The notes under the pieces are model-generated. The model did not search any database. It saw only the letters and a program-made list of their open reading frames with translations, and was not told the origin of the DNA. A stretch of DNA of 64,000 nucleotides, from contig NZ_JAATVW010000002.1 in NCBI RefSeq assembly GCF_011947225.1, forward strand, positions 186,001 through 250,000. Reading direction: 5' to 3'. The translations under genes were made by a program, and so were the position numbers. Below, piece after piece: positions 29,924-32,581 of this stretch (positions within the stretch are counted from its first letter, which is position 1; every line of letters begins with the position of its first letter). Origin of the DNA: Planosporangium flavigriseum (GTDB lineage: Bacteria > Actinomycetota > Actinomycetes > Mycobacteriales > Micromonosporaceae).

Positions 29924-30260
29924 GATGGATCACACTATCGCGTCCGGGCCGCTCGAATCACCGCGAGGGCGGCGTGCGCGGGTGCGGATAGGTATCGATG
30001 AGTAGCCGTTCGGCGGATATCCGCGTGCCGTAACGGCCATCGATGACCACCACACACGCGATCTTTCGGACCTTCACGCACAAACCGGGCCCGTTCGCGT
30101 CGCGCGACGCACACGGTGTGCGACGGAGGGCCTGTCAAATCGGGAAACCTCCCACCTGTAACCGAGTGCCCACGCGTTGGTGAATAAGCCCCCCCTTATA
30201 GTCACGAGCAGTTCACCCCTTTTGGGGGGATTAATACCCCTCACCCCCGAGGAGGCCGGA
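29924..30260. promoter_or_regulatory. bldN upstream region with two structured elements and an A/T-rich promoter
   Basis: A nested hairpin lies at 29994-30044: ATCGATG pairs with CATCGAT, GCCGTT with AACGGC, and CGGATATCCG is palindromic in the centre. A 15-nt palindrome lies at 30108-30122 (CGCACAC-G-GTGTGCG). TATAGT (30197-30202) is a good -10 candidate with no clear -35. A G6 run (30224-30229) can pair with any of three C-tracts (30216, 30237 and 30244), the last directly before the leader-ORF SD GAGGAGG. Confidence 0.5.
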
Positions 30261-30383
30261 GTGCCCTACTTTGCGCTATATCAGCGCTTCTCGGGCGCGG
30301 ATCGGGGCGCCGAGTGCGCCACGCCTACGCCACTTGTCCCAGGGCTGACCGCCACCGTCCGCGAGCTCGGGAAGTGCGCGTGA
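30261..30383 (+). CDS. Possible 40-residue leader peptide coupled to bldN
   Basis: GTG 30261 has an excellent SD (GAGGAGG, 30249-30255, 5-nt spacer) and opens a 40-codon frame, MPYFALYQRFSG at the start and VRELGKCA at the end. Its TGA overlaps the bldN GTG as GTGA. The bldN start itself has only a weak GGGAAG. This suggests translational coupling or a sensing leader. It has no recognised family and could be chance, but the SD is stronger than that of most genes here. Confidence 0.5.
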   Translation: MPYFALYQRFSGADRGAECATPTPLVPGLTATVRELGKCA

Positions 30384-31291
30384 ACGCGTACGAGTTGGGT
30401 TTCGGCCCTGAGGTCCTCGCGGCCCGCCTCGCCCTCGCCGAGAGCCTGCACCTGGCCGGCACGACGGCGGTCCGCAGCGACGGCGGCGTACCGCACACCC
30501 GTCAGCGCCCGCACTCCGGTGGCCTACCCGGGGCCCGCCACGCTCCGGAAGCGGATACCCGCGCGGGCGACGGCCGAGGGATGCCGGCCGGCCGCGTGTC
30601 GCCGGAGGGCCACCCGGAGGCCTCCGGGACCGGCTCCATCGCGATCGACACCGAGTCGGATCCGCACGCGGGCGGTGGTCCGAACAGCCCGCCGCCGGGC
30701 TACCCGGACCGGCCCGACTCCGACGATGCGGCAACAGCCGTCTGGCTGCTGGTCGAGCGGGCCCAGGCGGGCGATGCCGCGGCGTTCGGGCAGATCTACG
30801 ACCGCTACTTCGACACGGTCTTCCGGTTCGTGTACTTCCGCGTCGGCAACCGGCAGCTCGCCGAGGACCTGACCGCCGACACGTTCCTCCGGGCACTCAA
30901 GCGCATCGGCAGCTTCACCTGGCAGGGCCGCGACCTCGGCGCCTGGCTGGTCACCATTGCCCGCAACCTGGTCGCCGACCACTTCAAGTCCGGTCGGTAC
31001 CGGCTGGAGGTCACGACCGGCGAAGTACTCGACGCCGAGCGCGCCGACAGTGGCCCCGAGGGCAGCCCCGAGAGCGCCGTCGTCGACCACATCACCAACG
31101 TGGCGCTGCTGAAGGCGGTCAAGCAGCTCAACCCGGAGCAGCAGGAGTGCATCGTGCTGCGCTTCCTGCAGGGCTTCTCGGTCGCCGAGACCGCACAGAC
31201 GATGGGTAAGAACGAAGGCGCGATCAAGGCCCTGCAGTACCGCGCGGTCCGCACCCTCGCTCGGTTGCTCCCCGACGGCTTCCAGCCGTGA
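30380..31291 (+). CDS. bldN: ECF RNA polymerase sigma factor BldN
   Basis: A 303-residue sigma factor. About 120 low-complexity residues (Pro/Gly/Arg-rich) precede the ECF core: region 2 (AAAFGQIYDRYFDTVFRFVYFRVGN, ending GAWLVTIARNLVADHFK) and region 4 (NPEQQECIVLRFLQGFSVAETAQ, GKNEGAIKALQYRAVRTL). The long N-terminal extension fits BldN, which in Streptomyces is a processed pro-sigma needed for aerial growth and sporulation. It lies in the Streptomyces order rex-bldN-rsbN (SCO3320-3324). GTG 30380 forms GTGA with the leader ORF. Confidence 0.85.
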   Translation: MNAYELGFGPEVLAARLALAESLHLAGTTAVRSDGGVPHTRQRPHSGGLPGARHAPEADTRAGDGRGMPAGRVSPEGHPEASGTGSIAIDTESDPHAGGGPNSPPPGYPDRPDSDDAATAVWLLVERAQAGDAAAFGQIYDRYFDTVFRFVYFRVGNRQLAEDLTADTFLRALKRIGSFTWQGRDLGAWLVTIARNLVADHFKSGRYRLEVTTGEVLDAERADSGPEGSPESAVVDHITNVALLKAVKQLNPEQQECIVLRFLQGFSVAETAQTMGKNEGAIKALQYRAVRTLARLLPDGFQP

Positions 31292-31377: not shown

Positions 31378-31477
31378 ATGGAGTACGACCGGTGGCGGGG
31401 CGCCCGCTGGTCCCGGTGGCGACCCGTGCCATCCCGTCGCGCCACACACTCGCGACGAGCGAAGGCGGGTGTTCGCG

Positions 31478-32581
31478 GTGAACCTCTTCTTCTTCCGCCG
31501 CCAGCGCGCCGAGCGCTTCGCGCAGCTCCTGGACAACGCCTACGGTGGCGCCCGCCACCCCGACGCCTGTTTTACGGCCGACCAGGAACTGAACGACCTG
31601 ATGGGCGTAGGCGACCGGCTGCGCCGGATCGACGTCGACGCGCAGGCAGACCCGGAGTTCCGTACCGACCTGCGCGCCATGCTGATGGCGACGATCGAAC
31701 GCGACGGCATCGGAGCGAGCGCCGTCGAACCGGACGCCACTCGCCAGTTCGCCCGCCGACCGGCCGCTACCGCGTCGATGCTGGCCTGGCTTCCGCTACG
31801 CAGCCGGCGGGCCCGTGGCGCGGTAGTGGTCGGGCTGGCCGTCAGCGCCCTGGCCCTCGCCAGCATGTCCGCGCTGAGCGGCGACGCGAAGCCCGGCGAC
31901 GCGCTGTACGGGGTGAAGCGGTCCGGCGAGCAGGCCCAGGTGGCGCTGTCCAGCTCCCAGCTCAGCCGCGGCCAGCTGTACCTCGACTTCGCGAGGACCC
32001 GACTGAACGAGGCCGCCGCAGGGCGCGGCGACGTCGTCGCGATCCTCGCCGATATGGACGGCGAGACCCGTCAGGGCGTACGGCTGATCACCGCGACGGC
32101 CGTCGAACGGCGCGATCCCGCGTCGCTGGACCCGATCGACGTGTTCGCCGCGGGTCAGCGGCACACGATCGCCGGCATGCTGGCCACCCTCACCGGCACG
32201 CCGCGCACCCGTACCGTCGCCTCGCTGCAGCTTCTCGACCAGATCACACAGCGGGTCGCCACCCTGCGCACGAGCCTGAACTGCGGTGACCTCTCCGGTT
32301 CCCCGGTCGACGAGCTGGGCCCGGTCCCCGGCGGCTGCGCGATCCAGAATCCATCGGCGAGCGGCGTCTACGGGGCCCCGACCGGAAGCTCTCCGGCCCG
32401 GAACGACGCCACGCAGGCGCCGGCGAGCGGATTGGGTGTCACCACGTCCGGGACGACCCCCCGCGGCATCACGGTGACGCGGCCCGCTGCGCAGACCCCC
32501 GCCACGAGCGCGCCGCAGCCGAGCCAGCCGGCCGACGACGGCCTCCTGGACCGGATCGCGCGCATGCTCGGCGTCGGCTGA
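31478..32581 (+). CDS. rsbN: Anti-sigma factor RsbN (DUF5667-type membrane protein)
   Basis: About 367 residues. A cytoplasmic N-terminal part ([19 protein letters not shown]) precedes one transmembrane helix (about residues 110-130, [18 protein letters not shown]). The extracytoplasmic part contains [20 protein letters not shown], typical of DUF5667, and a Ser/Thr/Pro-rich tail. It should hold BldN inactive. GTG 31478 has AAGGCGGG at a good distance; GTG 31469 is the alternative. Confidence 0.75.

Follow-up and report, generated by a model that had tools for sequence, protein, structure and literature searches.

A short open reading frame overlapping the bldN start in most Micromonosporaceae as a probable translated entry ramp for a developmental sigma factor

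The window, meaning the whole 64,000-nucleotide stretch of Planosporangium flavigriseum DNA analysed here, carries the gene for BldN, a key developmental sigma factor. Directly upstream lies a short leader open reading frame (ORF) whose stop codon shares bases with the bldN start codon. The features of the locus are as follows.

30197-30202, forward strand, -10-like TATAGT of a putative promoter
30210-30232, forward strand, predicted hairpin P1; in the window version 30210-30214 and 30216-30219 pair with 30224-30232
30239-30252, forward strand, predicted mini-hairpin P2; CCTC (30239-30242) pairs with GAGG (30249-30252), so that the Shine-Dalgarno sequence is partly covered
30249-30255, forward strand, leader Shine-Dalgarno sequence GAGGAGG
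30261-30383, forward strand, leader ORF of 40 sense codons, from a GTG start to TGA at 30381-30383; product MPYFALYQRFSGADRGAECATPTPLVPGLTATVRELGKCA
30261-30276, forward strand, predicted hairpin P3; GTGC of the start-codon region (30261-30264) pairs with GCGC (30273-30276)
30380-30383, forward strand, GTGA, shared by the leader stop and the bldN start
30380-31291, forward strand, bldN, ECF sigma factor with an N-terminal extension (Pfam Sigma70_r2 1.8e-16, Sigma70_r4_2 6.1e-12)
31481-32581, forward strand, rsbN-like anti-sigma gene (DUF5667; Pfam PF18915 5.1e-08, ORF list); start picked by eye, the longest frame starting at 31469

A preliminary description of this DNA had recorded the GTG at 30261, the GAGGAGG, the TGA and the GTGA overlap with bldN, all of which are present. 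It was also right in naming bldN, as the ECF sigma domains, the N-terminal extension seen in alignment and the adjoining DUF5667 gene together mark a BldN-RsbN sigma/anti-sigma pair. The genome itself has a single close BldN match, with ten further matches only 26-35% identical. The leader product has no Pfam counterpart at E up to 1. Within the same genus, the loci of Planosporangium thailandense and P. mesophilum are letter-identical to two loci of the sample (L005 and L007). A sigma-70 scan for a leader/bldN promoter gave no match; a motif like the -10 hexamer (TATCAT or similar), 64-70 nt ahead of the leader start, is present in 118 of 164 leader-bearing loci. Further upstream, the window has a perfect inverted repeat at 30108-30122 (CGCACACGGTGTGCG). 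Repeats of this GCACA-n-TGTGC kind precede bldN in 113 of 219 family loci, at a median of 154 nt ahead of the leader start, and in none of 47 distinct loci of other families; they are likely candidates for an operator.

For a comparison across the Micromonosporaceae, soil bacteria of filamentous growth, 250 genomes were drawn, BldN was found in 247, and 220 loci were analysed; of the 27 BldN loci outside that set, 26 were left out and one lay on a cut contig. A paralogue (L251) was also set aside: genus g17 has a second BldN-like gene, approximately 65% identical, in eight of nine genomes (e.g. G051 contig 4), and L251, the copy that was analysed, lacks the leader site. Loci were classed with a leader-start-site matrix built from 38 distinct leader-bearing sequences, which makes site scores within the leader-bearing group partly circular; no fused, leaderless or outgroup locus entered the matrix. 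By this scheme, 164 of the 220 loci, in 32 of 43 genera, have a leader that ends in an NTGA overlap with bldN, and their common site reads CCCCTC..GAGGAGGCC..GTGCC. A further 30 loci are fused, i.e. the leader site is the bldN start itself, 21 are without the site (including the cut contigs L149 and L232, as well as L048 with a diverged leader-like ORF), and five are of other kinds. Site scores run from 16.5 to 34.1 in fused loci and stay at or below 1.5 in 20 of the loci without the site, and in 23 loci of other families the site was not seen (score at most 9.7). Among 80 named loci, which overlap the main set, 74 have the leader, five are without the site and one is of another kind. Leader bearers include Micromonospora, Dactylosporangium, Phytohabitans, Plantactinospora, Catellatospora, Asanoa and Catenuloplanes, among others, and Winogradskya humida and Amorphoplanes nipponensis lack it. 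In genus g29, of the Actinoplanes group, the site is absent in 16 of 46 loci (L018, L020-L023, L026, L095, L096, L100, L103, L104, L124, L127, L129, L144, L168), and bldN is open in all 16; of the 14 distinct ones scored, 13 have a 7-base Shine-Dalgarno match for bldN. These loci offer a natural control group without a leader.

Leader length is highly variable, with 34 distinct values from 16 to 67 codons in the 164 loci. Since the split class is defined by its overlap, its in-frame status is circular, and the fair count is that of all unfused loci with the site, in which the leader-to-bldN frame is kept in 167 of 169. These comprise the 164 tight loci, L123, where the leader stops one codon earlier (TAGTG), and L097 and L101, where leader and overlap are intact and the bldN frame is broken further downstream, through either an assembly error or a real change; the frame is altered in L158 and L099. 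Within genera, 23 extra leader lengths are in frame by class definition, and six extra lengths of the spacer upstream of the leader include no multiple of three. The check called for by the preliminary description, i.e. conservation of frame and Shine-Dalgarno sequence in relatives, thus came out in favour of the leader, which is a real and strongly conserved ORF, beyond chance.

The preliminary description had also called the bldN ribosome-binding site weak. This holds in the window, where the longest match to AAGGAGGTGA is 3 bases, and is a trait of that species rather than a general one, as 125 of the 162 distinct leader-bearing loci have a match of at least 5 bases; given such fair sites, independent initiation at bldN is possible in most of them. 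Leader RNA was not found to hide the bldN site beyond what codon-shuffled leaders do in 64 loci with leaders of at least 28 codons, limited in number per genus (mean z -0.07; the window itself, z = -2.8). Simple masking of the bldN site by the leader is thus not supported, opening costs being equal to those with shuffled leaders. Opening the leader site costs 12.9 kcal/mol on average, and opening the bldN site 14.4 kcal/mol behind leaders, 13.5 kcal/mol in leaderless loci and 12.0 kcal/mol in fused ones; special closure of the leader site is therefore unsupported, its opening being no more difficult than that of bldN sites.

Three hairpins are predicted for the 5' end, and they hold the leader Shine-Dalgarno sequence and start codon. 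In single folds, one per genus and judged by eye, P1, P2 and P3 often stand in series, with exceptions. RNAalifold on the full alignment returned P2 only, and, because divergent loops misalign P1 there, the three were tested as named structures. On 67 rows, 86.6% of P1 and P2 cells are paired, compared with 28-53% in slid controls, and two-sided changes number 27, a level that no shuffle out of 500 reaches (shuffle value 11.6). This test is biased toward P1 in that five of the nine rows left out of 76 (L015, L024, L029, L060, L062, L063, L146, L230, L231) are fused g12/g14 loci where P1 is unrecognisable. P2 taken by itself is paired in 97.8% of cells over the 67 rows with zero two-sided changes, as expected if one arm is the Shine-Dalgarno sequence, so that its support is a matter of conservation alone. 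For P3, 87% of 144 distinct sequences can make all four pairs of the GTGC/GCAC type, as can 90% of 30 fused ones; among control offsets on the 144 sequences, three reach 29%, 24% and 57% and the others at most 3%. On 30 standard-type rows, which were chosen by eye and hence biased too, 93.5% of P1-P3 cells are paired, compared with 30-56% when slid, and the outer P3 pair is GC in 19, CG in three, UA in three and unpaired in five. Relatives show covariation of P1 pairs; the window, where several of the consensus pairs are non-standard, makes its own stem. Overall, covariation supports P1 and part of P3. A covariance model located the element in its own genome at 30199-30282 (E 6.4e-7), and, in 148 genomes of the class, matched in four, two of them Micromonosporaceae, with two weak matches in other families. 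A second match in the own genome (E 0.005), a strong hairpin without a Shine-Dalgarno sequence just 3' of another ORF, was taken as chance. Searches of Rfam gave two weak matches far under the gathering score for the window region at E up to 10 and one weak, sub-threshold match for L025 and L086.

The fused loci bear on where the leader came from. They belong to genera g5, g8, g12, g14, g15 and g26, and their BldN starts read VPGTVPVVTAG..., VPGSAHVVTDEL...; several of them have a VT there that is similar to the one found at the beginning of split BldN, but the alignment did not bring the two into register in every case. A tree of 82 BldN proteins, in which 10 outgroup rows stand apart, puts the fused genera outside the split ones; the nodes placing fused ahead of split are weak (82/24 and 86/85), and the fused rows form one group in 18% of bootstrap trees. 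Since the same site opens bldN in six early-branching genera, bldN probably started ancestrally at what is now the leader start, which was split off later; the leader would have arisen when the extreme N-terminus of bldN was separated by a net frame change. A simple reading has a single split, after which part of the Actinoplanes group and a few others lost the leader.

Taken together, these data make it probable that the 40-codon ORF is translated and serves as an entry ramp for bldN by termination-reinitiation, with the act of translating it, and not its peptide, being what matters. The bldN mRNA would start about 50 nt ahead of the leader, and its first ~75 nt would fold into the three hairpins around the leader Shine-Dalgarno sequence and start codon. 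Ribosomes would load at the leader site, translate the short ORF, end at the TGA that shares bases with the bldN start (GTGA 30380-30383, an upstream stop overlapping a downstream start as in coupled pairs) and reinitiate on bldN. The entry site appears to be older than the leader, opening bldN directly in the early-branching genera, and, if this conserved site served as the bldN start before there was a leader, ribosome entry at it matters for bldN; in the split genera, such entry would get to bldN only via the leader and overlap. What selection keeps would be the entry site, the open frame and the 4-nt overlap, with the peptide doing little or nothing. As to the proposal in the preliminary description that bldN translation depends on the leader, the comparative evidence argues for the coupling, and dependence may be supposed; against it, the leaderless g29 loci have bldN intact.

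A rival to a peptide-neutral ramp is a sensing leader peptide, in which stalling at certain codons or a nascent chain controls bldN in attenuator-like fashion. In its favour, many genera have a similar sequence over the first 12-16 codons (VPV.AP.QHLKG.CR), and, for codons 2-16, dN/dS is 0.43 in genus g4 (pS 0.126, pN 0.058; 51 sequences, 1269 pairs, the pairs not being independent) and 0.46 in a 16-genus mix, values on account of which a weak peptide constraint there may exist. However, pS and pN are both low at the g4 start, which points to constraint at the nucleotide level. At leader codon 5, 108 of 144 distinct sequences have GCA and 15 GCG, with GCC never used, whereas GCC is the commonest alanine codon in the bldN frame (3228 of 5739; GCA, 258); this preference fits pairing of the start-codon GTGC with GCAC, and a taste for A-rich early codons in general could contribute. 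Early conservation thus lies largely at the nucleotide level, and the leader body is weakly constrained as a peptide. In the tail, beyond about codon 16, dN/dS rises to 0.85 in g4 (pS 0.38, pN 0.338), to 0.96 in g29 (30 sequences; 1.25 at the start and 1.1 for leaders overall) and to 0.76 in the mix, with six small genera giving 0.40-3.33 at the start and five of them 0.51-1.33 in the tail. Tail GC by codon position is 0.80/0.71/0.81, a weaker bias than the 0.73/0.62/0.87 of the first 80 bldN codons. A leader of 16-67 codons with tail dN/dS of 0.85-0.96 in the best-sampled genera shows neither the conserved peptide nor the stall-point codons of a sensing or attenuating leader, so that a functional leader peptide is unsupported, and the sensing reading is improbable. 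Sixteen of 164 leaders (L006, L008-L010, L030, L036, L045, L108, L111, L113, L122, L132, L145, L146, L204, L221), including all five of genus g7, have a TTA codon. Such a codon is usable by bldA-type control, a point for a sensing peptide, and in g7 it could tie bldN to the rare TTA tRNA.

Quite improbable as well is the reading of the leader as a remnant, inherited from the bldN N-terminus and of little effect, with bldN initiating from its own Shine-Dalgarno sequence. The losses in g29, the fair bldN sites of most leader-bearing loci and the lack of masking by leader RNA would all suit such a remnant; yet a remnant would be expected to lose its frame, which is instead kept over 34 lengths, and the window species is almost without a bldN Shine-Dalgarno sequence of its own. 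Programmed -1 frameshifting at the overlap, which would join leader and bldN into one protein, recalls the early-branching genera where site and bldN share one frame, and bldN does lie in the -1 frame relative to the leader. However, an in-frame X XXY YYZ heptamer occurs in the last 30 nt of none of 162 distinct leaders, and leaders end in 57 kinds of last-four-residue sequence, making this reading very improbable. A broader proposal, which is tentative and rather unlikely, is a family-wide RNA switch over the entry into development, in which the three-hairpin 5' end opens or closes on a cell signal and sets ribosome entry for bldN, in most Micromonosporaceae indirectly via a peptide-neutral coupling ORF split from the sigma factor N-terminus. 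Regulation might act through the fold, and the switch is made less likely by a leader site that is not specially closed.

In the source text available, the described control of BldN is transcriptional, by BldD, and through the anti-sigma factor RsbN; the conserved entry site and coupled leader point to translation as an added level of control in a large actinomycete family. The fused, split and lost forms are a natural series that shows how a coupling ORF can come about, and why the frame of such an ORF persists when its peptide hardly does. A leader of this size would escape gene finders that pass over short ORFs.

Genus g70 (family f21), which we take from its BldN to be Streptomyces, has the orthologous sigma factor, and the start region of its bldN is likewise conserved far beyond protein need, being almost invariant from about -36 to +48 in 26 loci (L066-L091); in the first 16 codons, identity at third positions is at least 92%. 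The loci examined have no such site or leader, and this conservation suggests that an RNA-level element exists there too, unlike the one in Micromonosporaceae. The closest known system is rseD-rpoE of Escherichia coli, in which rpoE translation is coupled to RseD and controlled through it. In both cases a short leader ORF heads an ECF sigma operon that includes an anti-sigma gene, RseD being named the rpoE leader peptide in the part of PMC8595263 available. However, E. coli belongs to another phylum and the likeness is one of gene arrangement; the bldN leader start seems to be the ancestral start of the sigma gene, leader length varies fourfold, and the leader site sits in a conserved, predicted three-hairpin 5' end. 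Within the open-access text available, and among the matches listed, including PMC4895711, PMC8103513 and PMC4255298, no description of a bldN leader was found, in line with the preliminary description, which knew of no described peptide here. Termination-reinitiation pairs with ATGA or GTGA share the 4-nt overlap and often have a Shine-Dalgarno sequence inside the upstream gene, and, in the available text of PMC6728339, 13 of the 14 pairs with such overlaps that were tested in Haloferax and E. coli showed strict coupling; at bldN, by contrast, the upstream member is an ORF with little peptide constraint and not a known gene. The sigR-rsrA operon of Streptomyces, as given in the part of PMC5472188 available, is also a case of an actinobacterial sigma factor under translational control with an ATGA overlap, but in that operon the sigma gene comes first, and control runs via a GTC start and IF3.
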